A DNA stretch of 64,000 nt from Massilia rubra. GTDB taxonomy: Bacteria; Pseudomonadota; Gammaproteobacteria; Burkholderiales; Burkholderiaceae_D. Location: NCBI RefSeq assembly GCF_011682065.1, contig NZ_VUYU01000005.1, forward strand, positions 264,484-328,483, given 5' to 3'. Below are positions 34,715 through 48,133 of this stretch, piece by piece. The translations under genes and the position numbers were made by a program. Each line of letters opens with the position of its first letter. The stretch's first letter is position 1. Under the pieces are notes generated by a model that saw only the letters and a program-made list of their open reading frames with translations, had not been told where the DNA came from and ran no database searches.

Positions 34715-34797
34715 CCGTCATTCCCGCGCAGGCTGGAATCCAAGTTTTCGCTTGCCAAGCGAAGGGCCTTGGATTCCCGCCTGCGCGGGAATGACGG
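34715..34797. repeat. 83-bp palindromic repeat in the receptor leader
   Basis: It begins CCGTCATTCCCGCGCAGG and ends GCGGGAATGACGG with an inner TTCGCTT/AAGCGAA stem. It matches copies at 19654-19736 and 37797-37879 in length and arms. It lies in the predicted 5' leader of the TonB receptor mRNA. Confidence 0.8.
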
Positions 34798-34840
34798 ATT
34801 CCCCCGTGGCGCCTGGCTTGTTGCTGCCAGTTTATTAAGC

Positions 34841-34912
34841 GGTTGACCAATTCTAGGCCGGTTTACATCTTTGCACAATTGGTCAGGCCACAATCTTTTT
34901 ATGGTCAGGCCG
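34841..34912 (-). promoter_or_regulatory. GntR-type promoter/operator A, before the TonB receptor
   Basis: On the minus strand TTGTGC (34878-34873) and TAGAAT (34855-34850) are 17 bases apart. Operator-like sequences lie around it: GGTTGACCAATT at 34841, ATTGGTCAGGCCA at 34878 and TGGTCAGGCCG at 34902. The start codon is 217 bases away, so a long leader is expected. Confidence 0.6.
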
Positions 34913-34923
34913 CTTTGTGGTTT

Positions 34924-36144
34924 TTATGGCGTGGTGGCCACGCTCACGGTCACCGGATTCGCGTCGCGCGCAGCCGCCGCGACGAGGTAGCGTTCCCAGT
35001 CCTGGCCGCTGAGGATGTCGCCCGAGCGGCTCCACGCCGCCCCCGCGTAGTAGCGCAGCGGCGTGCCGCTGGCCGCCGGCGCCAGCACCAGGTGGTTCAG
35101 CGCATCCGCGCCAAAGCCGGTCGCCGACGGCAGGATGACCGCCGTGCCCATGGCGCCGTTGCTGGCCTGTTCGACCCATTGCATCAGGATGCCGGGCGCC
35201 TTGTTGCCGATTTTGATGTCGGGCACCTGCCCCTTGTCGGTGGGGGTCTTGTTCAAGCCCACGCCGACTTCGATGCCCGCCTTGCCGGCGAAGGTGAAGG
35301 TGCTGTCGATGCGGTCCAGGTAGTGGCCGGCGTCGACCGTGAAGCGCTTGACCTCGGACACCGGCGTGCCGCCAGCATCCCAGCTGTCGTAGCTGAGCTC
35401 GAAGATGGCGCGCACCGGGCCGTTGGCCAGCACTTTCCAGCCCGTGAAGTTGTTGCCGGTGTAGAGAAGCTTGCCATCCCACACCCCGGTGCCGCCGGCG
35501 CCGCGCGTCTTGCCGACGTTGTACATGTCCATGCCTTCGCCTTCATCCTTGTGATAATGGTCGTGGCCCTTGTTGTACCAGCGATCGACGATCGGATACG
35601 GCACCCGCTTGAACCAGATATCGAGTCCGCTGGTCACCAGCACTTCCTTGGCGCCGCCCGCCGGGACCGGCGCGCCCAGGGCCGGGCCGTAGGTGCGGTG
35701 CGCGAGCTTGTCGTTTTCCCAGGCGAAGTCGTCGAGCCGCTCCGGCACGAAGCGCGCAAACGCTTTTACCGGGAACGGCGGCGCCACGGTGTCGATTTTC
35801 TCGACCGTGAAGATGGCGCGTTTTTCGCCGGCCGCAAAATTGTGCTGGAAAATCAGCTCGCCGTAGGCGATGCCGACGTTCTTCGGGTCCTTGGCCAGCG
35901 GCGCGATATTCGTTACCTGGTAGGGCAGCACGCGGCCGGCGGCATCCTTGACGGCGATGCGCTGGATCAGCGCGCCGGGCAGGGCGCGGTTGATCTCGCT
36001 CCACGGCAGCACGATGGTTTCCGACGGCCGCGCGATGTCGAGCCCATGGCTGACCGTGATGGTGGCGGCCGGGCCGGCCTGCGCCAGCGGGCAAGCTCCC
36101 GCGGCGGCCAGGGCGAGGAAGGAAAAGGCGAGTGATCTGGTCAT
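34924..36144 (-). CDS. DUF4861 secreted protein, probable pectin-island enzyme or binding protein
   Basis: 406 residues. Signal peptide (1-23, AGACPLAQA), then a beta-sandwich rich protein with DRWYNKGHDHYHKDEGEGMDMYNVGKTRGAGGTGVW in the middle; its His/Asp/Glu cluster could bind metal or sugar. DUF4861 genes are nearly always found in pectin and rhamnogalacturonan loci, but the activity is not established. It begins 7 bases after the GH105 stop, so the two are one operon from promoter B. Confidence 0.75.
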   Translation of the reverse strand: MTRSLAFSFLALAAAGACPLAQAGPAATITVSHGLDIARPSETIVLPWSEINRALPGALIQRIAVKDAAGRVLPYQVTNIAPLAKDPKNVGIAYGELIFQHNFAAGEKRAIFTVEKIDTVAPPFPVKAFARFVPERLDDFAWENDKLAHRTYGPALGAPVPAGGAKEVLVTSGLDIWFKRVPYPIVDRWYNKGHDHYHKDEGEGMDMYNVGKTRGAGGTGVWDGKLLYTGNNFTGWKVLANGPVRAIFELSYDSWDAGGTPVSEVKRFTVDAGHYLDRIDSTFTFAGKAGIEVGVGLNKTPTDKGQVPDIKIGNKAPGILMQWVEQASNGAMGTAVILPSATGFGADALNHLVLAPAASGTPLRYYAGAAWSRSGDILSGQDWERYLVAAAARDANPVTVSVATTP

Positions 36145-36151
36145 GGCGTTC

Positions 36152-37558
36152 TCAATGATGTTCGCGGTAGTTGGTCTGGCCGGCGCCCTTGGGCATGTAG
36201 TGATAGGTGCGCACCTTGTGCTGGACTTCGATGTTGGGGTTGTTGATCAGCTTGATCATCTCGGCGCCGGCCAGCAGGGTCGGGCCGTAGCCGTGCAGCG
36301 CGAACGGGCTGGTCGGGCGGTTGTAGTAATACACCTGGTCGCTGGCAAACGTGGTGCCGACGCAGGTGCCCTCGACCTGGCCCTTGTCGTTGATGCGGGT
36401 CGACAAACCGGCCCAGCCGGCCTGGGCGATGGAGCCGTAGGTCGTCGGGCTGATCCAGCCTTGGTTGATGGCGTGCGCAAACACGTAGACGAACATCGCG
36501 CTGGCCGAGGTTTCGAGATAGGAATCGTTACGGTCGAGCATCTGGTGCCACAGGCCGCTGCCGGACTGGCGCTCGCCGATGCTCGTCAATGTGGTGCGCA
36601 ACTGCGCCAGCACCTGCGGATAGCCGGGATGGTCCTTCGGCAGCACGTCGAGCAGGTCGGACATGCTCATCACCGCCCAGCCGTTGGCGCGCGCCCAGTA
36701 AAAGTTCGGGGCGTCGGGGTTGTTGGCGTTCCAGCCGTGGGTGTACAGCCTGGCCTGCTTGTTGAACAGGTAGCCCGACATCTGCAGCACGTTCTTGACG
36801 GCATCGTCAAAATGGGCGCGCTTGCCGGTCATGCGGCCCAGTTCGGCCAGGGCGGGCACCGACATGTACAGGTCGTCGGCCCACAGCGACACCGCCTGCG
36901 GGCGCTCGCGCGCCATGGTGCCGTCCGGCAGGCGGAACTGCTTGTTGACCACCCAGTCGCCGCAGGTGGCGATGACGTGCGACAGGTCCGGGCCGATTTT
37001 CAGGGCGCGCGCGCGCATCATGGCGGCGCACATGGAGCCGGCGTCGTCGAGCGCGCGCGGGTCGAGGAAGCGCGAAAAGCTGTTGGCGCGTTCGAGCTTG
37101 AATTGCTTTTCCTGGGCCTGGAAGTAGGGCAGTTTGTCGGCGAAGAAATTGAAATGGCGGGCGGTCAGGTCGGTGAAGCGCTTGTCGCCGGTCACTTCCT
37201 GGGCCTTGATCATGCCGGCATGCACCACGCCCATTTCGTAGACCATGATGCCCATGTCGGCATGGCTCGCTTCGGTGATGGCGTTGGCGTTCGGTTTGCT
37301 GAAGTCGGTAATCGGCGCGCCGGTCTTTTTGTCGACCACGCGGGTGGGGGTGGCCGTTTCCATGAAGCCGCGGATGCGGTGCAGGGCGGCGGTGATTTCG
37401 GCCACGACGGGCTTCTTGTATGGGACCGGATAGCTGCCTTCGCCCGGGTCGTTCAGGTTCTTGTTGTCCGGATTGCGGAATGGGCCGTCGGCGTACGCCG
37501 GGCTGCCCATGCAGGCCACCGTGGCGATGGCGGCAAACAGTTTAAGTGCTGTATTCAC
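36152..37558 (-). CDS. GH88/GH105 family unsaturated glycuronyl hydrolase
   Basis: 468 residues. Starts at GTG 37558 with AGGGGAC before it. Signal peptide (about 1-23, ACMGSPAYA). The (alpha/alpha)6 domain carries DDAGSMCAAMM and SLWADDLYMSVPALAELGRMTG, the typical active-site segments with catalytic Asp pairs of unsaturated rhamnogalacturonyl hydrolases (YteR-like), plus FYWARANGWAVMS and SGLWHQMLDR. It removes the 4,5-unsaturated uronic acid left by polysaccharide lyases. It shares an operon with DUF4861 and is led by promoter B. Confidence 0.9.
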   Translation of the reverse strand: MNTALKLFAAIATVACMGSPAYADGPFRNPDNKNLNDPGEGSYPVPYKKPVVAEITAALHRIRGFMETATPTRVVDKKTGAPITDFSKPNANAITEASHADMGIMVYEMGVVHAGMIKAQEVTGDKRFTDLTARHFNFFADKLPYFQAQEKQFKLERANSFSRFLDPRALDDAGSMCAAMMRARALKIGPDLSHVIATCGDWVVNKQFRLPDGTMARERPQAVSLWADDLYMSVPALAELGRMTGKRAHFDDAVKNVLQMSGYLFNKQARLYTHGWNANNPDAPNFYWARANGWAVMSMSDLLDVLPKDHPGYPQVLAQLRTTLTSIGERQSGSGLWHQMLDRNDSYLETSASAMFVYVFAHAINQGWISPTTYGSIAQAGWAGLSTRINDKGQVEGTCVGTTFASDQVYYYNRPTSPFALHGYGPTLLAGAEMIKLINNPNIEVQHKVRTYHYMPKGAGQTNYREHH

Positions 37559-37596
37559 ATTGTCCCCTGTTATTGGTGATGATTTTTTAAGCGCTA

Positions 37597-37637
37597 TTTG
37601 GTCAGGCCATTCTAGTTTGGTCAGGCCAAATGTGCAA
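37597..37637 (-). promoter_or_regulatory. GntR-type promoter/operator B, before GH105
   Basis: On the minus strand TTGCAC (37637-37632) and TAGAAT (37614-37609) are 17 bases apart. Two operator copies are seen: TTTGGTCAGGCCAAA at 37616-37630 inside the spacer and TTTGGTCAGGCCA at 37597-37609 over the start of transcription. It may also serve the divergent hydrolase gene. Confidence 0.7.
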
Positions 37638-37707
37638 GGCGGACTAGCCACTTGTGTCAGCCCATGGCATACTTTATCGACACGTGGATGAACTGGGAAG
37701 GTCGGCG

Positions 37708-38838
37708 ATGGGGAATGCTGTTCAAGGCTGGGGCGCCGTATTTACCGGGCTGCTGTTGGCGGGGTGCGTCGCTGGATCTGGCCCCCATACCGAAGACCGT
37801 CATTCCCGCGACGGCGGGAATCCAAGGCATGTTTGCGGCTCGACGATACCTTCGATTCCCGCCGTCGCGGGAATGACGGATAAGAGGATGGTGACCGAAC
37901 AAGCTGCCAGCGCCGCCGCGCCCTACAACGCGGCGACCTCCTACGCCAAGCTGGTCAAGGCCTATCCCTTCATCAAGATCGCCGGCACGCACACCAGCGC
38001 GGAGACGAGCACGATCGGCGGCATCGGGTATGCCCGGCGCGGCGCGCACCTGCTGCAACTGGACCTGTACCTGCCCGCCCAAGCGAGGCGCAATCAAGCA
38101 CCGCTGGCGGCGGTGGTCCTGGTGCACGGCGGCGGCTGGCGTTCCGGCGAGCGCGCCAACATGGCGCCGCTGGCCGCGCGCCTTGCCGCGCGCGGCATCG
38201 CCGCCGCCGTGATCGACTACCGCCTGGCCGATGAAGCGCGCTACCCGGCCGCCATCCACGACGTCAAGGCCGCGCTGCGCTGGCTGCGCGCCAACAGCGC
38301 CGCTCACGGCATCGACCCGCAACGCATCGCGGTGGCCGGCGGCTCGGCCGGCGGGCAAATCGCCAGCCTGGCCGGCGTCACCAACGGCATGCCGACATTC
38401 GATCCCGACGCCGCCGGCAACGCCGTATCGAGCGCGGCGCAGGCGGTCATCAACATCGACGGCCTGTCCGATTTTACTTCTCCGGCCGCGCGCGCCAACG
38501 AAGACGATCCGCACAAAAAGCCATCGGCTGCGGGCTTCTGGTTCGGCGGCGGCTACGCCGAAGCGGCCGACCTGTGGCGCGAAGCCTCGCCCACCTTCTA
38601 CGTCAACCCGCGCACGCCGCCGATGCTGTTCATCGGCAGCGCGCAGCCGCGCTTTGCGGTCGGGCGCGACGACATGGTTGCCAAAATGACAGCGGCCGGT
38701 GTCGCCACCGAAGTCGTCATGCTGCCCGATACACCCCATTCCTTCTGGCTGTTCGAGCCATGGATCGACCCCACGGCCGACGCGATCGCCGCCTTCCTGC
38801 ATACCCACATTCCAACAACAACGAGACAAGCTCCATGA
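37708..38838 (+). CDS. Alpha/beta-hydrolase (BD-FAE-like) lipoprotein with an in-frame palindromic repeat
   Basis: 376 residues. It starts at ATG 37708, which has GGAAGG 6 bases upstream and gives a lipobox at LLAGC (Cys 20). Residues about 30-60 are encoded by an 83-bp palindromic repeat (HSRDGGNPR, IPAVAGMTD). The enzyme domain follows: LVHGGGW oxyanion motif, Ser in AGGSAGGQ, Asp and His (PDTPHSFWLF) in the usual order for a carboxylesterase. It probably removes acetyl or feruloyl groups from pectin oligomers. Its stop overlaps the GH43 start (ATGA). Confidence 0.8.
   Translation: MGNAVQGWGAVFTGLLLAGCVAGSGPHTEDRHSRDGGNPRHVCGSTIPSIPAVAGMTDKRMVTEQAASAAAPYNAATSYAKLVKAYPFIKIAGTHTSAETSTIGGIGYARRGAHLLQLDLYLPAQARRNQAPLAAVVLVHGGGWRSGERANMAPLAARLAARGIAAAVIDYRLADEARYPAAIHDVKAALRWLRANSAAHGIDPQRIAVAGGSAGGQIASLAGVTNGMPTFDPDAAGNAVSSAAQAVINIDGLSDFTSPAARANEDDPHKKPSAAGFWFGGGYAEAADLWREASPTFYVNPRTPPMLFIGSAQPRFAVGRDDMVAKMTAAGVATEVVMLPDTPHSFWLFEPWIDPTADAIAAFLHTHIPTTTRQAP
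37797..37879. repeat. 83-bp palindromic repeat inside the hydrolase gene
   Basis: CCGTCATTCCCGCGACGG at the left and the inverted CCGTCGCGGGAATGACGG at the right. It falls in the linker just after the lipoprotein signal of the hydrolase and remains open in the reading frame. Confidence 0.85.
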
Positions 38839-40442
38839 CCACAACGACTCTATTGCACCGGGCCGCGCTCCTGATCCTGCCGCTGGCGCTTGGCGCCTGC
38901 CAGGGCACGCCGACCGCCCCGCAGCAACCATGGACGGCCGACCTGGGCAACGGCCAGTACCAGAACCCGATCCTGCACGCCGACTATTCCGACCCGGATG
39001 CGATCCGCGTCGGCGACACCTATTACATGACCGCGTCGAGCTTCAGCAACACCCCCGGCCTGCCGCTGCTGCAATCGACAGACATGGTCAACTGGGAACT
39101 GGTCGGCCACGCGCTGCCCAGGCTGGTGCCGGAAAACGTCTTCGCCACGCCGCAGCCGGGCAAGGGCGTGTGGGCGCCGTGCCTGCGTTTTCATGACGGT
39201 AAATTCTGGATTTTTTATCCCGACCCGGACTTCGGCATCTACGTCATGACCGCCGCCAGTTTCGACGGACCGTGGACGGCGCCGCACCTGCTGGCCGGCG
39301 GCAAGGGCTTGATCGATCCGACGCCGCTGTGGGACGACGACGGCAAGGCGTACCTGCTGCACGGCTGGGCCAAGAGCCGCGCCGGTTTCAATAACGTGCT
39401 GACCCTGCGCGGCATGGCGCCGGACGGGCGCAGCCTGCTCGACACCAGCGGCCAGGTCATCATCGACGGCAACAAGCTACCCAATTACAAGACGCTGGAA
39501 GGGCCGAAGTTCTACAAGAAGGATGGCTACTATTATGTCTTCGCGCCGGCGGGCGGAGTGGAGGAAGGCTGGCAGTCGGTATTCCGTTCGCGCAGTATCA
39601 ACGGGCCGTACCAAGACAAGATCGTCATGGCGCAGGGCAAGTCCGGCATCAACGGTCCGCACCAGGGCGCGTGGGTGACGGCGCAGGATGGCAGCGACTG
39701 GTTCTTCCACTTCCAGGACAAGCGCGCGTACGGGCGCGTGGTGCACCTGCAGCCGATGCGCTGGAAGGATGGCTGGCCGCTGATCGGCGAGGAAGTCGAC
39801 GCCAGCGGCGTGGGCCAGCCGTTTGTACGGCACGCCAAGCCGCTGTCGGCCGGGCCGGTGCGGGTGCCGCCGACGGGGGACGAGTTCTCCAGCGCGGCGC
39901 TGGGGCCGCAATGGCAGTGGAGCGCGAACGGCAGTCCGCAGTGGACTTCGCTGGCCGCCAGGCCCGGCCAGTTGCGCCTGCAAGCGCAGCCGGGGACCAA
40001 TCTGCGCGAGATGGCGTCGGTGCTGACGCAGAAACTGCCGGCGCCGGCGTTCACGGTCGACACGCGGATCGCACTGTCGGCCACGCAGGAGGGAGATCGC
40101 GCCGGGTTGGTGCTGCTGGGGATGAAGTATGCGTGGCTGGGATTGCGGCGCGCGGGGACAGCATCGCAGTTGGTGCTGGGGGTGTGCGAAGGCAATGAAA
40201 ATACGTGTACCGAGAAGGATCAGCTGGTGGTGCCGGTCGATGGAAATGCGGCGTACCTGCGCATGACGATGGCCGACGGCGTGGCGACTTTCTCGTACAG
40301 CGTGGATAACAGCCGTTTTGTAGAGGCGGGGCAGCCGTTCAAGGCCAGCATGGGGCGCTGGGTGGGGGCGCAGATGGGCTTATTCAGCGCCGGTGGCGCG
40401 CAGGCGCATGCGGATGTGGATTATTTCCGGGTCAGCAAATAG
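38835..40442 (+). CDS. GH43 family glycosidase lipoprotein
   Basis: 535 residues with lipobox LALGACQG (Cys 20). The five-bladed propeller domain (about 40-335) shows DYSDPDAIRVGDTYYM with the general base, GLIDPTPLWDDDGKAYLLHG, and TLEGPKFYKKDGYYYVFAPAG with the general acid Glu. The C-terminal domain (about 350-535) is a beta-sandwich found with xylosidase/arabinofuranosidase members. It likely removes arabinose, xylose or galactose side chains from pectin in the periplasm. It is translationally coupled to the hydrolase by the ATGA overlap. Confidence 0.85.
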   Translation: MTTTTLLHRAALLILPLALGACQGTPTAPQQPWTADLGNGQYQNPILHADYSDPDAIRVGDTYYMTASSFSNTPGLPLLQSTDMVNWELVGHALPRLVPENVFATPQPGKGVWAPCLRFHDGKFWIFYPDPDFGIYVMTAASFDGPWTAPHLLAGGKGLIDPTPLWDDDGKAYLLHGWAKSRAGFNNVLTLRGMAPDGRSLLDTSGQVIIDGNKLPNYKTLEGPKFYKKDGYYYVFAPAGGVEEGWQSVFRSRSINGPYQDKIVMAQGKSGINGPHQGAWVTAQDGSDWFFHFQDKRAYGRVVHLQPMRWKDGWPLIGEEVDASGVGQPFVRHAKPLSAGPVRVPPTGDEFSSAALGPQWQWSANGSPQWTSLAARPGQLRLQAQPGTNLREMASVLTQKLPAPAFTVDTRIALSATQEGDRAGLVLLGMKYAWLGLRRAGTASQLVLGVCEGNENTCTEKDQLVVPVDGNAAYLRMTMADGVATFSYSVDNSRFVEAGQPFKASMGRWVGAQMGLFSAGGAQAHADVDYFRVSK

Positions 40443-40498
40443 GAATGACACCGCGTCGTCCCCGGCAATGCCGGCGACGACGCGGTGGCGAGATGCGC

Positions 40499-40705
40499 TT
40501 AAAACGCCGGATCGTTCGCCGCCATGCGCGAACGGCGCCAGCGCCACACGTTGAAGGCGGTCAGCGCGGCGGGCACGCCGATCACGACCAGCCAGGCGCT
40601 GGCATCCATGTTGCGCGTGATGACCACGCCGGCGCCAAGGGCGAACGCGATCAGGCCGCGCAGCAGGATCCAGTTGAGCTGGGCTTTTGAGTTCATTTTT
40701 TGCAT
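40499..40705 (-). CDS. Small two-helix membrane protein
   Basis: 68 residues with two hydrophobic segments (LLRGLIAFALGAGVVIT and WLVVIGVPAALTAFNVW) and an Arg-rich turn after the second. No known function. An alternative ATG at 40696 would drop MQK. It follows the pectinesterase gene on the same strand 71 bases later and may be read through from it. Confidence 0.5.
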   Translation of the reverse strand: MQKMNSKAQLNWILLRGLIAFALGAGVVITRNMDASAWLVVIGVPAALTAFNVWRWRRSRMAANDPAF

Positions 40706-40775
40706 GTGTCGAAGTTCGATCAAGAGGGATGCCGCAGGCGGCTGTAACAGCCCGCTAGCGTATCACGAACGCCGT

Positions 40776-43190
40776 TCAGGGCGTCGCTTGCCCCGCTTCC
40801 GGGTCCCATCCCCGGCCGCCATCGAAGCCGGAAAACACCGCCGCCCGGCTCGAGAGCGCGGCCGCTTCCTGCGCGCTGAGAACCACGCCACCGGCGCGTT
40901 GCGACAGGTCCAGCGGCTTGCCGTCCAGGTCCATGCTGCCGGATTCGCGCCAGCCGCTGTGCGCTGTCGCGCTGGCCGGATTGGGCGCCGGCTCGCGCGT
41001 CGCATAGCGCGTCGCATCGCGCTGCACGTCGTTTCCGGCCCAGCCGACCGGGGCGATATGCTCGCCCATCTTGCAATTGATGTAGGCCACGTTATCCCAG
41101 GTGGCCTTTGTACCCGGGCTGCGCGCCAGGTAAGTGGCGCCGCGCGCAATCTTGTTGGCCAGCGGACCCGGTCCCGGCCCATGGGTCAGCGCGCTGTTGA
41201 GGAACACGAAGCCGGGGTCAAGCGCGCTCACCGTGCGCGCCTGCACCACATAGCCGCCGCTGGACGGGTTGGCGCTGTCGCCGACCGAGCGCAGTTCGCT
41301 TTCTTCGAACAGGGCTGCGCGGTTGGCGCCCCAGATGAAGTCGACGTTGCCTTCGATGAGCGTGCGGTAGAACCAGGAATACCCTTTGACCTGGATCGTA
41401 TCCTGCTCGCTGAAAAAGCTGGCGTTGCGCGCGATCAGGCGGCCGCTGTCGTTGTTGAAGTAGATGGTTTCGGCCTGGCCGGCCACCTTGTCGGCGCGCA
41501 GGGTCGTGTTTTTCAGGGTCAGCGTGTCGAGCGTGAGCAGGTCGGACGTTTCGACCATCAGCAGCGCGCGCCCGCCCGTGAACGATGGCGACTGCGGGCC
41601 TTGGCTGAGGCCCGAACCGGGGTTGTAGCCATCGTTGTTGCCATTGTGGATGACGACGCCGTCGCGGCTTTCGCCCTTGATGGTCAGCTTGTCCTTGCCC
41701 CGGATGAACAGCATCTCGTCGTAGCGGCCGTTGCGGACGTCGATCGTGACCGGCGTGGCCTGGCCGGCATGCCGCATCGCGTGGTTCAGCGCGCCCTGCA
41801 CGGTGCGGAAATCGGCCGGGCCGTCATCGTCCACGCTGAGCCGGGTGCCGGATGGCGCGCTGGCGCGGGTGCGAAAGGTCCATCCGGCGGCGCGGCCGAC
41901 ACCGGCAAACGGCGCGCCCTTGATCGTCGCGTTCCCGAACACGCCCGGCTCGATCACCACGTAGTAGGCGCCGCCGTAGGCGAGGCGGTTGGCGTGCGGG
42001 CGCACGGTGGCGCTGTTGCCGTCGATGCTGATCGGCGCGCGGCGCACGTAGCGCATCTGGTCCTGGCCGGGGTAACCGATGGCCGCCACTTCAGCGCCGG
42101 GACGGATGATATCGACCAGCTTGTGGTCGCCCTGGCGGTAGATGCGCACCGAACCGGTGCTGCCGAGGCGAGGCGGCTGGTCGAAGCGAAGGCGCAGCAG
42201 GGTGTCGGGCTGGACCGCATCGGCGCGCGCGGGCGGGGAGATGGCGCCGTCGAGGTCGATCCGGTACGCGGCCGGTGGCGCGAAGGCGGACGCGATGCGC
42301 GCGTCGATGATGCTCTGTACGCTCGGATCGGCGACGCTGGCGACGATCAGGCTGGCGCTGCCGGTTTTTTTTGGCGTGACGACGATGCCGCTGCCGCGCA
42401 CGCTGGCGCTGGCCACGGCCGGGTTGCTGGAACGGACGCTGAAACGCACCGGCGTGACGCCATCGCCGTCGAACGCGCTGATAGCCAAGGTCGATGGCGG
42501 ATCGCCGGCCTGGGCCTGGAAGCTGCTGGCGGCGACGGCGGGCGCGATGCGCATGGGTTTCTGTGCCGGGTCGCCGATGCGGATAGCGTCTAGCTCGAAA
42601 CCTTTGCCGCTGCTGTAGACGCCGAGCGCGCCGGGGATGGCCGAGCCGGGCACGGTGGCGGTGGTGAGTTTTTCGCCATTGAGGTAGACGCTGAGCGCCT
42701 CGCCGATCATCTCGAAGCGGACGGTGAGAAAGCGGCCTGCGCTGGGGATGGTGCGTTTGACCTGTTTCAGGCGGCCGAGTTTGGCGTCCTGCTGGCGCAC
42801 GATGTCGGCCTGGACGGTGGGGCTGGCATCGCTCATCTGCAGTCCAGCGCCGAGCCAGTGATTAGCGTCGACATGACGGCCGACCAAGTACAACTGGCCA
42901 GGAGGGCCGGGCGGGCCAGGCAAGGCGCGCACGCGTGCCTCGACAAAATAGTCGGTGGCGTGCGCTACCTGGGTGAACAGCGTGCGCACCGCGCCCGGCC
43001 CCTGGTCGAGACGAAGCGCCTTGGGCGCTGTTGCCGCCATCTTCAGCAAACCGGGGTCTGACCTCTGATTCGAAATATTGCTAATTAAAGCTCTGACCCC
43101 GGTTGTAGGCGGTTTTACCTGTGTTTCAGCCATTGTGGCAGTTGGCAGCAGCATGGCGAGGAGCAGAGGGGAGGTCAGACGCTGGGACAT
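40776..43190 (-). CDS. Pectinesterase (CE8) with N-terminal accessory domains and an in-frame palindromic repeat
   Basis: 804 residues from ATG 43190, signal peptide MSQRLTSPLLLAMLLPTATMA. Residues about 28-48 (VRALISNISNQRSDPGL) are encoded by a 57-bp palindromic element. A LamG/KRE9-like laminin-fold domain (about 50-205), an Ig-like domain (about 210-300) and a further region precede the right-handed beta-helix (about 460-770) with EQDTIQVKGYSWFYRTLIEG, NVDFIWG carrying the catalytic Asp, and YLARSPGTKATW. It removes methyl esters from pectin. The pectinesterase motifs are slightly divergent (FIWG for FIFG). Confidence 0.85.
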   Translation of the reverse strand: MSQRLTSPLLLAMLLPTATMAETQVKPPTTGVRALISNISNQRSDPGLLKMAATAPKALRLDQGPGAVRTLFTQVAHATDYFVEARVRALPGPPGPPGQLYLVGRHVDANHWLGAGLQMSDASPTVQADIVRQQDAKLGRLKQVKRTIPSAGRFLTVRFEMIGEALSVYLNGEKLTTATVPGSAIPGALGVYSSGKGFELDAIRIGDPAQKPMRIAPAVAASSFQAQAGDPPSTLAISAFDGDGVTPVRFSVRSSNPAVASASVRGSGIVVTPKKTGSASLIVASVADPSVQSIIDARIASAFAPPAAYRIDLDGAISPPARADAVQPDTLLRLRFDQPPRLGSTGSVRIYRQGDHKLVDIIRPGAEVAAIGYPGQDQMRYVRRAPISIDGNSATVRPHANRLAYGGAYYVVIEPGVFGNATIKGAPFAGVGRAAGWTFRTRASAPSGTRLSVDDDGPADFRTVQGALNHAMRHAGQATPVTIDVRNGRYDEMLFIRGKDKLTIKGESRDGVVIHNGNNDGYNPGSGLSQGPQSPSFTGGRALLMVETSDLLTLDTLTLKNTTLRADKVAGQAETIYFNNDSGRLIARNASFFSEQDTIQVKGYSWFYRTLIEGNVDFIWGANRAALFEESELRSVGDSANPSSGGYVVQARTVSALDPGFVFLNSALTHGPGPGPLANKIARGATYLARSPGTKATWDNVAYINCKMGEHIAPVGWAGNDVQRDATRYATREPAPNPASATAHSGWRESGSMDLDGKPLDLSQRAGGVVLSAQEAAALSSRAAVFSGFDGGRGWDPEAGQATP
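43049..43105. repeat. 57-bp palindromic element inside the pectinesterase gene
   Basis: Begins AACCGGGGTCTGACCTCTGA and ends with the other arm type TAAAGCTCTGACCCCGGTT, a hybrid of the two arm types seen elsewhere. Length is 19 codons, so the frame is kept. Confidence 0.8.
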
Positions 43191-43236
43191 GGCTCGGGAC
43201 TCAGAGTGAAAAGGGATACGCGACATTTGCATCCAC

Positions 43237-43290
43237 ACCGGGGTCTGACCTCTGATTCGAAATATTTCGAATCAGAGGTCAGACCCCGGT
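43237..43290. repeat. Perfect 54-bp palindrome
   Basis: ACCGGGGTCTGACCTCTGAT is mirrored exactly about the centre between 43263 and 43264 (centre TTCGAAATATTTCGAA) to end in ACCCCGGT. It lies 47 bases upstream of the pectinesterase start in the gap behind the acetylesterase. Confidence 0.9.
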
Positions 43291-43340
43291 TGTATCAGGG
43301 CAGAGCCTGGTTGTAGGAATGTTGAACCTGGCTCATCCCC

Positions 43341-43394
43341 ACCGGGGTCAGAGCTTTAACTTGAAACATTTCTAATTAAAGCTCTGACCCCGGT
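43341..43394. repeat. Palindromic element of the second arm type
   Basis: ACCGGGGTCAGAGCTTTAA and TTAAAGCTCTGACCCCGGT are perfect 19-base inverted arms around a 16-base middle. It sits between the pectinesterase and the acetylesterase genes and could terminate or modulate read-through. Confidence 0.85.
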
Positions 43395-43401
43395 TGTAGG
43401 C

Positions 43402-44205
43402 TTATGGCTCGGGGGCGAGGGCGGGGCGCAGGGCGGGAATCTGGCGCCGCAGTTCGCGCGCGACCATGCCGGAAAACAGGGCCGCACCCTTCGCGCCGAC
43501 GTGGGTGCGGTCGAAGCTGGTTTTTGGCGTTCCTTGCGGTTCGACCGCCGCAGCCGACCCCGCCGCCACGGGCGCCGCAGCCGGGTCCGGCGGCGGCGCT
43601 TGCGCCAGGGTGTCGGCTTGGTTTGACCCCATCGCTTGCACGGCGTCGGCGCTGATCTTGTTCAGGTCGACGAGCAATGTGCCAGTCTCTTTCGCCACGC
43701 GCCGCACTTCGGATGCCCACGGACCGAGGTCGTCGCGCAAATATGCACCCTTGAAGCTGCGCCGCGTCAGCGGCGTGACCAGCACCGGCACGCCACCGAG
43801 CGCGCGCGCTTCGCTGACGTATCGCGCGATGTTTTGCGGGAACTGGGTCACCAGGTCGGTCGAGCGCCCCGGTTTGCCCGGCTGGTCGTTGTGGCCGAAC
43901 TGGATCAGCACGTAGCTGGCGCTGTACGCCGCGCCGTCGCGCAGCAGCGCTTGCACCTCGTCCCAGCGCCCCTCGGCGCGAAAGCTGCCGGAGCTGCGTC
44001 CGCCACGCGCCAGGTTGACGCAGGCCGCGCCGGCGCGCAGGCGCTGGCACAGGGCGTCGCCGTAGCCGGAGCGGGTCGCCATGGTCGAGTCGCCGACCAG
44101 GATGAGGCGCGCCGGCCTAGCCGCTTCTGCGGCCGCATGCGCGGGCGCGGCGGCCGCCAGTGCCAGGCCAGCGGCCGCTATCAGGGAAGGAAATGGCGTC
44201 ATCAT
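43402..44205 (-). CDS. Rhamnogalacturonan acetylesterase-like SGNH hydrolase (CE12)
   Basis: 267 residues with a signal peptide (about 1-24, APAHA). The SGNH blocks are clear: GDSTM (nucleophile Ser) at about 40, GGRSSGS, GHNDQ with the Asn, and DRTHVGAKG with the Asp-His pair near the C-terminus. The Pro/Ala-rich stretch QAPPPDPAAAPVAAG is an insert before block V. It removes acetyl groups from rhamnogalacturonan. The ATG at 44205 overlaps the stop of the upstream TonB receptor (TGATG), so the genes are coupled. Confidence 0.85.
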   Translation of the reverse strand: MMTPFPSLIAAAGLALAAAAPAHAAAEAARPARLILVGDSTMATRSGYGDALCQRLRAGAACVNLARGGRSSGSFRAEGRWDEVQALLRDGAAYSASYVLIQFGHNDQPGKPGRSTDLVTQFPQNIARYVSEARALGGVPVLVTPLTRRSFKGAYLRDDLGPWASEVRRVAKETGTLLVDLNKISADAVQAMGSNQADTLAQAPPPDPAAAPVAAGSAAAVEPQGTPKTSFDRTHVGAKGAALFSGMVARELRRQIPALRPALAPEP

Positions 44206-47024
44206 CAGAAGGTGTAGTTCACGCGTACGTTGTAGGCGCGGCCGATCGGCTTGGCGATGTTTTGCGCGAAGACCACGCGCGAACTGAGGCGCTGGTTCGA
44301 CAGCGGCGGGTCGACATCGAGCAGGTTGTTCACGCCAAACGTGAACTTGAGCCGCTTGTTCCAGGCGTAGTTGGCGGTCAGGTTGTACAGGATGTAGGGC
44401 TCGATTTCGTTGTAGAAGGGCTGGCCCGGTTTCTGGCTCGGCAAGGCGTTGGTGTCGATGTAGCTCGAGGTGTAGGACTGCGTCAGCTGGGTGCCGAAGC
44501 CGCCCCGGCTCCACGACAGGCGCAGGTTGTGCTTCCACTTGAAGACGTAGGTGTTGGCGGAGGTGGCGCCGGTCGAGAGCGCGCCGGGTTTGCCGACGCT
44601 GTCGATCCAGTCGCCGCCTTCTTCGTTCTGGCCTTCGTATTTGTTGACGTAGGTGCCGTCGAAGGACATGCCGAAGCGCCCCATGCTGGCGGTCGGGAGG
44701 GTGTAGCTCAGGCTGGCGTCGATGCCCTGGGTGCGCAGGCCGCCCATGTTCAGGCGCGTCTTGGTGATGTAGGCCAGGGTGCCGTCGGCATTGCGTACGA
44801 ACAGATTGTTGTATTTGTTGACGTCGCCGAAGATCGTGTCTTCTGAAATCTGCGCGATCGTGCCTGTCATCTCGACGTTCCAGAAGTCGAGCGAGGCAAC
44901 CAGGTTCTTGACCGGTTCGATGACGATGCCGGCGGTGAAGGTCTTGGATTTTTCCGGTTCGAGGTCGGGATTGGCGCCGGTCAGCACGGTCAGGGTGCTG
45001 CCGCAGACCTTGGCGGCGTCCAGGTTCAGGCCCGCGTATTTCGGGTCGGCGGTGAGGGTGCCGGTGCCGCTCACGCCGGGCGTGCCGCTCGGGCACAGCA
45101 GCGGGTCATCCCACTTGGAGGTGGATGGCACGCGCGTTTGCGGGGTGCCGTACAGCTCGGGCAGGGTCGGGGCGCGAAAACCCGTGCTGGCGGTGGCGCG
45201 CAGCATCAGGGCCATGGATGGCTCGTAGCGCACGCTGGCCTTGGGGTTGAAGGTGGTGCCGAAGTCGCTGAAGCGGTCGGCGCGCACGGCCAGGTTCAGG
45301 TTGAGCTGCTTGGTGAACGGCGCGTCCAGTTCCAGGTAGGTGCCGAGCACGGTGCGCGCGCCATGCGGGTAGCGGTTGGGCGTGCCGGAGACTTTGTAGA
45401 CCACCGCGTCGCCAATGTCGCCGGAGGCGTCACGGTAGGTTTCGCGGTGCAGGTCGGCGCCGACGGCGAGCGCCAGCGCGCCGCCGCCCAGGGTCGTCAG
45501 TTCGCGGTTCAGGGTCAGGTCGGGGCCGTAGTAGTGGACTTCGGCGCGACGGTTGACCAGGCCGTCGGCGGAGATGCTTTCCAGGTAGGCCTGGCCGGCT
45601 GCGTCCTGCGGTCCGAAGGGGTTGAGCACGCCGTCGGCCACGCCCTTGTACAGCGCGGGCGTGCGCAGGTAGCCGCTCAGGAATTTGACGGTGCGCTTGC
45701 TGTAGGCGTAGTTAAAGCCGGCCTTGTAGTCCCAGCCCTTGAACTGGCCTTCTTCGGTGAGCACCAGGCGGTGGCTGTTCTGGCGGTCGTCGGTGATGGC
45801 CGGGCCGAGTTCGTCAAGGCTCCAGGTGAGCGCGAGGTCGGTGCCGTTCAGGCCGGCCACGGCGGGCACGCCGCCCGCACCTCCTGGATACCATTTGCTG
45901 GCCTTGGTGATCATCAGCGGTTTGCGCAGGCCGGGGTTGAGCTTGTCGTAGTCGGTCTGGGCGCCGAATGGCTGCGGCGGATTGAGGGCGTCGATGTAGG
46001 ATTCGGAACTGAGCAGCTCGACCGTGAGCATGTTGCCGTCGCCATGGCGCAGGCTGCCCTTGGTCAGCAGGGTGGTTTGCTTGTTGTCGGCCAGCAGTTG
46101 CGGATACAGGTTCGGGTCGAGCACGCAGGTCTTGCTGCCGGCGCCGCCCGGCTTGGTCGAGGCGATGGTGTACTGGCCCTGGTACGGGGCGACGCAGCCG
46201 GCGCCGAAATACGGGTTGCCGGTGACGCTGGTCGGCTTGCCGTTGGCGTAGACGGTGTAGTTGGCCGGCGCCGACGAGGAACCGGAGGTGTTGCTGGTAA
46301 ACGCCGTGCCGCCGAGGCGGGCGATGTCGTCCGGGTCGCTGATGTTGGGGCGGTCGCGCTGCATCAGGGCGCTGCGTTTCTGGGTGTCGAAGGCGGCGTA
46401 GACGTTCCAGCCATCCTTGGCCAGGTCGCCGGTGCCGCTGGTCAGGCTGAAGCGGCGCTGCTCGCCGCCGCCGCTGCGTTCGGGCGCCATGACGCTGGCG
46501 CTGGCCGTGGTGTCGGCAATGGCCCGCTTGGTGATGAAGTTGACCACGCCGGCAATCGCATCGGTGCCGTAGATGGCCGAGGCGCCGTCGCGCAGCACTT
46601 CGACCCGTTCGATGGCGCTCATGGGAATGACGTCGACGTTGATCGCGCTGTCGCCAATGGCTTCGTTGGCCAGGCGGCGGCCGTTGAGCAGGAGCAGGGT
46701 GCGGTTGGTGTTCAGGCCGCGCATATTGATCATGGTGCCGCCGCCACCGCCGCCGACCGGTTCGTTGGTCGCGCCGGCGGTGAGCGAGGTGGCCACTTCG
46801 GACATCGTGGTCAGGCCGCGGTTGACCAGGTCGTCGGCCTTGATGGTGGTCAGGGGCAGGGCGTTTTCGCTGGCCAGGCGCTTGATGGAGGAACCGGTGA
46901 CTTCGATCCGGGTCATGCCGCCGTCGCCCTGCTGGGCCGAGGCCTGGTTCATCAGGGTCAGGACCGCGATGGCGATGGAGGAAAGCAGTAGCTTCGGTTG
47001 CGGGAACCGGGGTGGTGTGGGCAC
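44205..47024 (-). CDS. TonB-dependent receptor of the pectin island
   Basis: 939 residues, GTG start at 47024 with AGGAGA upstream. Signal peptide region ends in NQASAQQ. The TonB-box-like RIEVTGSSIKR is followed by a plug (GGGGTMINMRGLNTNRTLLLLNG) with the usual VERVEVL-type AIERVEVLRDGASAIYGTDAIAGVVNF, and a barrel ending NVRVNYTF. It is a second receptor for the same region, of a different subtype from the one at 31651. It leads the operon with the acetylesterase and (across two palindromes) the pectinesterase. Promoter C lies just upstream. Confidence 0.85.
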   Translation of the reverse strand: MPTPPRFPQPKLLLSSIAIAVLTLMNQASAQQGDGGMTRIEVTGSSIKRLASENALPLTTIKADDLVNRGLTTMSEVATSLTAGATNEPVGGGGGGTMINMRGLNTNRTLLLLNGRRLANEAIGDSAINVDVIPMSAIERVEVLRDGASAIYGTDAIAGVVNFITKRAIADTTASASVMAPERSGGGEQRRFSLTSGTGDLAKDGWNVYAAFDTQKRSALMQRDRPNISDPDDIARLGGTAFTSNTSGSSSAPANYTVYANGKPTSVTGNPYFGAGCVAPYQGQYTIASTKPGGAGSKTCVLDPNLYPQLLADNKQTTLLTKGSLRHGDGNMLTVELLSSESYIDALNPPQPFGAQTDYDKLNPGLRKPLMITKASKWYPGGAGGVPAVAGLNGTDLALTWSLDELGPAITDDRQNSHRLVLTEEGQFKGWDYKAGFNYAYSKRTVKFLSGYLRTPALYKGVADGVLNPFGPQDAAGQAYLESISADGLVNRRAEVHYYGPDLTLNRELTTLGGGALALAVGADLHRETYRDASGDIGDAVVYKVSGTPNRYPHGARTVLGTYLELDAPFTKQLNLNLAVRADRFSDFGTTFNPKASVRYEPSMALMLRATASTGFRAPTLPELYGTPQTRVPSTSKWDDPLLCPSGTPGVSGTGTLTADPKYAGLNLDAAKVCGSTLTVLTGANPDLEPEKSKTFTAGIVIEPVKNLVASLDFWNVEMTGTIAQISEDTIFGDVNKYNNLFVRNADGTLAYITKTRLNMGGLRTQGIDASLSYTLPTASMGRFGMSFDGTYVNKYEGQNEEGGDWIDSVGKPGALSTGATSANTYVFKWKHNLRLSWSRGGFGTQLTQSYTSSYIDTNALPSQKPGQPFYNEIEPYILYNLTANYAWNKRLKFTFGVNNLLDVDPPLSNQRLSSRVVFAQNIAKPIGRAYNVRVNYTF

Positions 47025-47052
47025 GGCGTGTCTCCTGATTAGAATTGCTTTT

Positions 47053-47093
47053 ATGGTTAGGCCAATTTTAGTTTGGCCTGACCAATTAATCAA
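47053..47093 (-). promoter_or_regulatory. GntR-type promoter/operator C, before the second TonB receptor
   Basis: On the minus strand TTGATT (47093-47088) and TAAAAT (47070-47065) are 17 bases apart. TTTGGCCTGACCAAT lies in the spacer (47072-47086) and ATGGTTAGGCCAA over the start of transcription (47053-47065). The rest of the 328-base gap to 47352 holds only an 11-bp inverted repeat (CGTCGTTCCCG, 47174-47184 / 47204-47214). Confidence 0.7.
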
Positions 47094-47352
47094 GGTGGAC
47101 TTGCCAATATCGCCATCATGCCAGTTCGCGCCTGTTGCCTGAGCCGCTTATGCGATCATTTTCCCCGCTACCCCGTCGTTCCCGCCAAGGGGGCCGCCCA
47201 GGCCGGGAACGACGAGGGTGGTGGATAGAATGATGATGATGACGACGGCGGATAGGGCGAGTTAGTGGCGCTTCCCGGACCGGGTTGCCGGGGCCGGGAT
47301 GTCAGATGCAGGATGCGATTAAGGACGGGCGTAACAACCGCGCCCCCGCGAA

Positions 47353-48051
47353 CTACCCCCGCGAAAACGTCCTTGTCACGCGCTCCAGGTGTGCACGCAT
47401 GGCCTGGCGCGCGCCGGCCACATCGTGCGAGGCGATCGCTTCGAGAATCTTGCGGTGGTCGGTCAAGGTGGTCACGCGCAAATCCTCGGTCTGGAAGTGT
47501 TCCTTGAGCTTGTGCCACAAGCTGCCGCGCTGGTTCCACAGATAATCGACCACCCCGACCAGCGCCGTATTGCCCGTGGCGCGTGCGATCGCCAGGTGAA
47601 AATTGCGGTCGGCCTGCTCGTTGCTGGCGCGGTCCTCGTGATGGTGTTCCATCTCCAGCACCGCCGTCAAAATCGCGTCGATGGCCGAATCGGTGGCCAT
47701 CTTGGCCGCCAGCGCCGCCACTTCGGACTCGATCATGCGGCGCGCGGCCAGCACTTCGAACGGGCCTGGCCCGACCTCGGGCACATCGGATTGCGCCGTG
47801 GCTTGCTCGCTGACATACACGCCCGAGCCGCCGCGCACTTCGACAATGCCGCTCAGTTCGAGCACGATCAGCGCTTCGCGCAGCGAGGCCCGGCTCACGC
47901 TCAGCTTGGCGGCCAGGTCGCGCTCGGCCGGCAGGCGCTCGCCGGCCTTGATGCTCTCGTCGCGGATCAGGGCCTGGATGCGGGTCGCTACGACCCGGTA
48001 CAGGCGCGGCTCAGCCGAGGTCGATTCTTGCGGCGCAGAGGGTTTCTTCAT
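47353..48051 (-). CDS. GntR family regulator with FCD domain, probable pectin regulator
   Basis: 232 residues. The N-terminal wHTH (about 15-80) reads RLPAERDLAAKLSVSRASLREALIVLELSGIVEVRGGSGVYV, a clear FadR/GntR motif, and residues about 95-225 are an FCD all-helical effector domain with metal-ligand-like residues in RNFHLAIARATGN and TDHRKILEAI. FCD members of this sort sense sugar acids. Its own promoter (D) carries the same operator as three other promoters in the island, so it is probably a repressor that controls itself, both TonB receptor operons and the GH105 operon. Confidence 0.85.
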   Translation of the reverse strand: MKKPSAPQESTSAEPRLYRVVATRIQALIRDESIKAGERLPAERDLAAKLSVSRASLREALIVLELSGIVEVRGGSGVYVSEQATAQSDVPEVGPGPFEVLAARRMIESEVAALAAKMATDSAIDAILTAVLEMEHHHEDRASNEQADRNFHLAIARATGNTALVGVVDYLWNQRGSLWHKLKEHFQTEDLRVTTLTDHRKILEAIASHDVAGARQAMRAHLERVTRTFSRG

Positions 48052-48104
48052 TGATTATGTGGATCCGGGGTAAGGCGTGAGGGGGGTGTGTACATGCTCG
48101 CCTG

Positions 48105-48133
48105 ATTTTAGTTTGGTATGGCCAATGTTGCAA
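48105..48133 (-). promoter_or_regulatory. GntR-type promoter/operator D, autoregulatory
   Basis: On the minus strand TTGCAA (48133-48128) and TAAAAT (48110-48105) are 17 bases apart with TTTGGTATGGCCAA (48112-48125) inside the spacer. It is 54 bases before the GntR start codon. Confidence 0.7.

Follow-up and report, generated by a model that had tools for sequence, protein, structure and literature searches.

The window described here is a 64,000-nucleotide stretch of a Massilia rubra contig (NZ_VUYU01000005.1, positions 264,484 to 328,483), and within it lies an island of genes for the use of pectin. The island encodes a GntR-type regulator with an FCD domain (GntR1), two TonB-dependent receptors, and an operon headed by a GH88/GH105-family enzyme, which we take from its family to be an unsaturated uronyl hydrolase. 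Four minus-strand promoters lead these genes. A sequence-only reading of the window had picked out all four and had drawn from them one regulator and a small, autoregulated regulon. The promoters are where that reading placed them; the regulon is larger and better defined than it supposed. Their shared signature most likely marks a family of regulators that, in bacteria related to Massilia, turns on as one set the uptake of pectin, the enzymes that cut it, a machine for enzyme export and the breakdown of galacturonate.

All four promoters (34850, 37609, 47065 and 48105) have a TTGNNN −35 box, a 17-bp spacer and a −10 box of TAGAAT or TAAAAT. With at most one mismatch, TTG-N20-TAAAAT matches the window eight times against 2.54 expected, a count that none of 100 shuffles reaches, and the eight matches include all four promoters. 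The genes behind them are those first assigned: a TonB receptor, the GH88/GH105 enzyme with a DUF4861 protein, the second TonB receptor and the FCD-type GntR. Three of the promoters (37609, 47065 and 48105) do carry TTTGG-N5-CCAAA/T in the spacer, and extra operator copies stand beside three of the four (34878 and 34900; 37597; 47052), the gntR promoter having none. The promoter at 34850 is unlike the other three: its operator abuts the −35 box and does not fill the spacer.

As a motif, TTTGG-N5-CCAAA is not enriched beyond chance. With one mismatch allowed, it matches the window three times where 1.31 matches are expected, a count that 12 of 100 shuffles also attain. A refined 13-mer, TTGGTCAGGCCAA, gives 40 window matches at up to three mismatches against 14.15 expected, and no shuffle in 100 reaches 40. 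Only two exact copies exist in the 7.57 Mb genome, both in the island, before the GH105 enzyme and TonB receptor 2. At up to two mismatches genome-wide, the 13-mer yields 301 matches to 152 for its reversed control, a background high enough that we adopted tighter and composite patterns. These are a refined operator, WTTGGYCWGRCCAAW, and a composite promoter, TTG-N6-TGGNCNGNCCA-N3-TARAAT, the latter scanned at one mismatch or fewer.

Across the whole genome, WTTGGYCWGRCCAAW occurs at 19 places with at most one mismatch, and 11 of these precede pectin or galacturonate genes; the motif is not one that is common genome-wide without linkage to pectin. Five of the 11 are in the island (34878, 37597, 37616, 47072 and 48112), the weaker sites at 34900 and 47052 falling below the cut. 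Two stand before a paralogous regulator, GntR2, behind which come a TonB receptor and GH28. Three lie between a pseudopilin-like gene and a PL1 pectate lyase, near a further paralog, GntR3. The last, a perfect palindrome, has a CoA-transferase gene on one side and the gene for galactarate dehydratase (garD) on the other. Lying inside an open frame proved uninformative as the sign of a false site, since 10 of the 11 pectin-linked sites are also in some frame of at least 100 codons, and we sorted the sites by the Pfam matches of the frames that cover them instead. For seven of the remaining eight, the covering frame encodes a recognized Pfam family (phytochrome kinase, glycine-zipper protein, SmpB, M56/transpeptidase, a further TonB receptor, amino-acid kinase and GH65), and the eighth, at C52:190822, has no assignment. 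With at least four further promoters on contigs C85 and C20, the regulon can hardly be called small.

Nor is there one regulator. The genome encodes three paralogs (100, 77 and 67% identity), and GntR2 and GntR3 carry GntR and FCD domains above the Pfam gathering cut-offs, as GntR1 does. The stretch VSRASLREALI, which we take to be the recognition helix, is identical across the three, and the GntR2 promoter has the familiar layout, TTGCGC-N17-TAGAAT with the operator mid-spacer. The nearest NCBIfam models are UxuR and ExuR, for which the scores of 149.5 and 148.1 bits are far under the equivalog cut-offs of 442 and 396; orthology with either was rejected on that ground. The best match in the PDB is the GntR protein 6az6 (63.5 bits), with NanR second (61.8 bits), and the Asp and His residues that we assume to form the metal/ligand site of the FCD domain are present (D148, H152, H199 and H221). 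A tree of 82 proteins, its root serving only the drawing, places GntR2 on a long branch in a clade of 27 rows and GntR1 and GntR3 in the other clade. GarD is carried by 22 of the 26 loci of the GntR2 clade versus 7 of the 53 of the other.

Outside the window, the galactarate dehydratase scores above the cut-off for TIGR03248. Behind garD come an epimerase that we would name uronate-dehydrogenase (Udh)-like, its score being below every NCBIfam cut-off listed, and then an aldose-1-epimerase-family protein. An operator is found upstream of garD in all 11 of the genus genomes that have the gene. Upstream of PL1, aligned in seven species, three operator islands stand out from diverged DNA: 27 of their 38 columns are invariant, compared with 19 of 81 outside (p = 1.6e-6). 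Two sites 20 bp apart, L081:4400 and L081:4420, head a minus-strand operon that encodes GspF and GspE domains, a secretin and pseudopilin-like proteins (these last recognized by eye). This type II secretion operon (L081:1-4254 and L080:16484-19773, on contig C85 of genome G000) adjoins pectate lyase genes. Its GspF and secretin score below the NCBIfam cut-offs for GspF and GspD, and we therefore regard it as a divergent type II system. Seven of 17 genus genomes have the secretin at an identity of 89-100%, and the other secretins matched (E 1e-60 or better) reach 40-44%; at the head of the operon both sites are above threshold in six of these genomes and one site in the seventh.

With each paralog adjoining its own gene set, the three might have their own ligands and targets despite similar operators, making three small regulons. 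We regard this as possible, if on the doubtful side. GntR2 does fall in a different clade from GntR1 and GntR3, albeit on its long branch, and proteins as much as 60-70% identical may bind distinct motifs, according to PMC4494728. Against separate regulons stand the shared VSRASLREALI and the presence of the same operator at all loci. There is also genome G002 (L255, C1:6400000-6416000), which has orthologs of GntR1 and GntR2 and no match to GntR3, and yet retains the type II secretion and PL1 operators; this implies action in trans, by another paralog.

For breadth, we drew 79 distinct Oxalobacteraceae loci from the paralog alignment (the best 80 of 153 relatives), covering Massilia, Undibacterium, Duganella, Pseudoduganella and Rugamonas, plus metagenome-assembled genomes. 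These loci hold 195 strong sites against 11.5 in a first-order Markov control. A TTGNNN/TANNNT promoter surrounds 110 of the sites, and in 102 the dyad is exactly in the middle of a 17-bp spacer. Among neighboring sites, 49 of 64 pairs are spaced by 19 bp, an arrangement in which the two cores flank the −10 box and the second 15-mer overlaps its last bases. The double operator before GH105 is nearly invariant in six species. A slightly relaxed composite, TTG-N6-TGG-N5-CCA-N3-TANAAT, has 106 matches, spread over 74 of the loci, and its reversed control has none; the next gene is GntR (34), GH105 (18), GDSL (15), a TonB receptor (12), PL1-pectinesterase (2), something else (4) or unassigned (21). 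At least one of 15 pectin- or uronate-linked gene clusters is present in 73 of the 79 loci, and in 45 of the 79 the 350 bp before gntR include a strong site.

Regulator and promoter also keep company across genomes. Among 17 of the genus, GntR, GarD and the composite promoter (one mismatch or fewer) are found in the same 11, and the other six, two of them incomplete (48 and 81%), have none of the three. Among 116 genomes of the family, six of which also belong to the genus set, the composite occurs in 12, all of them among the 16 with the GntR (E 1e-60 or better), and in none of the other 100 (Fisher 2.6e-13, uncorrected for kinship). The reversed pattern gives no match in the genus set and one in the family set; in G055 the sole composite is on a different contig from the GntR. 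The sequences themselves show the operators and how they are laid out, their conservation, the genes around them and the way they accompany the regulator. The proposed link between this type of GntR, the operator and pectin genes is supported by co-occurrence in both sets and by conservation near gntR across the Oxalobacteraceae. Should the palindrome belong to some other pectin regulator that travels with the island, the GntR would be a passenger, and GntR3, with no strong operator before it, might be taken that way. We judge this very unlikely given the co-occurrence across the 116 genomes, the sites just upstream of gntR in those 45 loci and the fit of the operator to the FadR consensus, to which we return below.

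Several things weigh against the pectin regulon as we read it. The score and the patterns were drawn up after the sites had been seen, and the 195 sites come down to 94 distinct 15-mers from related, non-independent loci. In 34 of the 79 loci the 350 bp before gntR hold no strong site, GntR3 has no strong operator before it, and 4 of the 16 family genomes with the GntR are without the composite. Control of garD is less sure in G005, G007 and G015 because the sites there fit a promoter aimed at the divergent neighbor (GntR in G005, GH105 in G015). The PL1 sites are about 350-460 bp upstream of the PL1 open reading frame, which is far for a blocking operator. The sites that head the type II secretion operon leave no significant footprint (21 of 26 versus 23 of 36 columns, p = 0.17), and the composite promoter, when looked for there, was not found.

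Autoregulation is the weakest link of all. An operator does lie in the gntR promoter of the window; the site is above threshold in only one of five relatives and below it in the other four, which leaves autoregulation of this gntR doubtful. In three relatives, the left GG has A in place of its first G. Where the left half is altered (L109, L110 and L111), the gntR1 promoter keeps its −35 box, −10 box and 17-bp spacing, as if autoregulation of gntR1 were being lost in that clade. Promoter boxes that outlast a decaying operator might tempt one to see in the shared geometry a conserved housekeeping-type promoter and no operator at all. We find that scarcely credible: the composite is missing from the 100 family genomes without GntR, and the PL1 operators, which are outside the mid-spacer layout, nevertheless persist in diverged DNA.

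Table 1. Genes, promoters and operators of the pectin island, in window coordinates.
Feature	Coordinates	Strand	Basis or remark
GntR1, FCD/FadR-subfamily GntR regulator, 232 aa	47353..48051	-	Pfam FCD 6.2e-26, GntR 7.4e-18
TonB-dependent receptor 2	44205..47024	-	Pfam plug and barrel; GTG start at 47024 read from sequence
Open reading frame with C-terminal GDSL-lipase domain	43402..45096	-	Pfam Lipase_GDSL_2, residues 334-493
Pectinesterase-domain protein	40776..43238	-	Pfam PF01095 8.7e-15; same strand, downstream of TonB receptor 2
GH88/GH105-family enzyme	36152..37558	-	Pfam PF07470 5.3e-77; GTG start read from sequence
DUF4861 polysaccharide-utilization protein	34924..36144	-	Pfam PF16153 1.5e-77; next gene after GH105, same strand
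TonB-dependent receptor 1	31651..34617	-	Pfam; ATG start at 34617 read from sequence
gntR1 promoter, TTGCAA-N17-TAAAAT, operator in spacer	48105..48133	-	
Operator TTTGGTATGGCCAAT, weakest of the in-spacer set	48112..48126	.	gntR1 promoter
TonB receptor 2 promoter, TTGATT-N17-TAAAAT	47065..47093	-	
Operator ATTGGTCAGGCCAAA (minus strand), mid-spacer	47072..47086	.	Exact TTGGTCAGGCCAA match, one of two genome-wide
Second operator ATTGGCCTAACCATA (minus strand)	47052..47066	.	20 bp downstream, begins at −10 end; also in L108-L110
GH105 operon promoter, TTGCAC-N17-TAGAAT	37609..37637	-	Nearly invariant in 6 aligned species
Operator TTTGGCCTGACCAAA (minus strand), mid-spacer	37616..37630	.	Exact TTGGTCAGGCCAA match, one of two genome-wide
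Second operator AATGGCCTGACCAAA (minus strand)	37597..37611	.	19 bp away; −10 between both cores
TonB receptor 1 promoter, TTGTGC-N17-TAGAAT, spacer without palindrome	34850..34878	-	
Operator TGTGGCCTGACCAAT (minus strand)	34878..34892	.	Abuts −35; more symmetrical in G016, L111
Weaker upstream operator AGCGGCCTGACCATA (minus strand)	34900..34914	.	22 bp further

The GDSL-lipase frame of Table 1 overlaps the gene for TonB receptor 2, and its start is not necessarily the true one. By Pfam, the window also encodes GH43 and BD-FAE. Two other sequences recur. An inverted GTCATTCCCGC...GCGGGAATGAC element has intergenic copies at 34719-34798 and 37798-37880 of the window and resembles a dispersed intergenic repeat. 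The 21-mer TTGGGGAGTCGAAGCGAAAAA has identical copies on many contigs of G000 (e.g. C20:125122, C30:170025, C44:23670, C52:228563 and C85:295543) and is probably a multicopy element.

How would such promoters work? We consider it highly probable that uronate-responsive FCD-type GntR repressors run a family-wide pectin regulon, in the manner that follows. The repressors, three paralogs in the Massilia genome, would bind the palindrome WTTGGTCNGACCAAW as dimers, TTGGTCNGACCAA being the predicted binding site of GntR1-3. The dyad of a first dimer would be at the exact center of the 17-bp spacer, and a second dimer would often sit 19-20 bp downstream, just past the −10 box. With the −10 box between two operator cores, RNA polymerase would be kept out, an exclusion we propose to be steric. 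A pectin breakdown product (presumably galacturonate, galactarate or a keto-deoxy acid) would bind the FCD domain and free the DNA. Derepression would then reach the TonB receptors, the GH105, GH28 and PL enzymes, the type II secretion operon and the oxidative galacturonate pathway of GarD and the uronate-dehydrogenase-like enzyme. Binding, repression over activation, the ligand, cross-binding between paralogs and cooperativity are what we infer. FCD proteins sometimes act as activators or dual regulators, and the GntR may read its operator mainly in that way. The operators of TonB receptor 1 abut or precede the −35 box and the PL1 sites are far upstream, positions that can serve activation. 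We nonetheless think it unlikely: 102 of the 195 sites are in the spacer and second copies begin at the −10 end, both polymerase-blocking positions, and the −35 and −10 boxes at those promoters are near consensus.

The operator form, which the sequence-only reading had offered as its own, has antecedents. In PMC4494728, the operator consensus of the FadR/FCD subfamily is TKGT-N3-ACMA, and FadR-subfamily divergons have double sites at a constant distance. Base frequencies over our 94 distinct sites (picked by palindrome score) give WTTGGTCNGACCAAW, which satisfies this consensus. An excerpt of PMC2018728 gives GTGTGGTCAGACCACAC as the predicted operator of MSMEG_0596, a FadR-subfamily protein of Mycobacterium smegmatis, and through it the two systems share the core TGGTCAGACCA; they differ in phylum, the table passage names neither targets nor a relation to uronates, and the mycobacterial case is a prediction only. 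Between the fit to the consensus and that earlier core, the operator form is not new.

ExuR and UxuR are hexuronate repressors that control hexuronate genes, and KdgR is a member of the IclR family. The first two, enterobacterial proteins of the FadR subfamily, have GntR and FCD domains in common with the Massilia regulators, and the GT-N3-AC spacing is as ExuR's (PMC4494728, in part); they differ in that the Massilia regulon extends to TonB receptors, pectinases and type II secretion. GguR, predicted in Halomonas and likewise of the GntR family, has a regulon with galactarate utilization and Udh; the passages on it in PMC5507952 name no pectinases, receptors or secretion genes. NanR of Escherichia coli is a GntR-type repressor in which several dimers pack cooperatively on neighboring sites, and it differs in its direct GGTATA repeats and sialic acid (PMC8012715, in part) from the paired palindromes 19 bp apart in Massilia. 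KdgR of Dickeya works alike, to judge from PMC8688573 and PMC9007343: a single repressor governs pectinases, pectin catabolism and the out genes, with a pectin catabolite as inducer. The Massilia regulator is not itself a KdgR, Pfam finding GntR and FCD only. Opinion could fall evenly either way on a bolder reading, in which the duplicated FCD-GntR set of the Oxalobacteraceae would have become a KdgR-like master control of pectin use, arrived at independently of the IclR-type KdgR of Dickeya, with a dedicated type II secretion system also under its command. It would act through a rigid clamp of two operators that holds the −10 box between dimers 19 bp apart.

In the open literature (most subscription journals lying outside its scope), we found no paper on Massilia, pectin and GntR together, and none joining at least five of the terms GntR, pectate lyase, galacturonate, type II secretion, TonB-dependent and operator. 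Exact operator strings led to PMC2018728 as relevant, the other matches being unrelated by title. Among the matches listed for Oxalobacteraceae with pectin and galacturonate, none was on regulation by title.

What emerges, in a family of environmental bacteria, is a pectin-use regulon that can be put to the test. Its fixed layout of promoter and operator would make it readable in new genomes with nothing but the sequence. The coupling of enzyme export to the sensing of substrate, as KdgR does with Out, suggests that this arrangement arose more than once.

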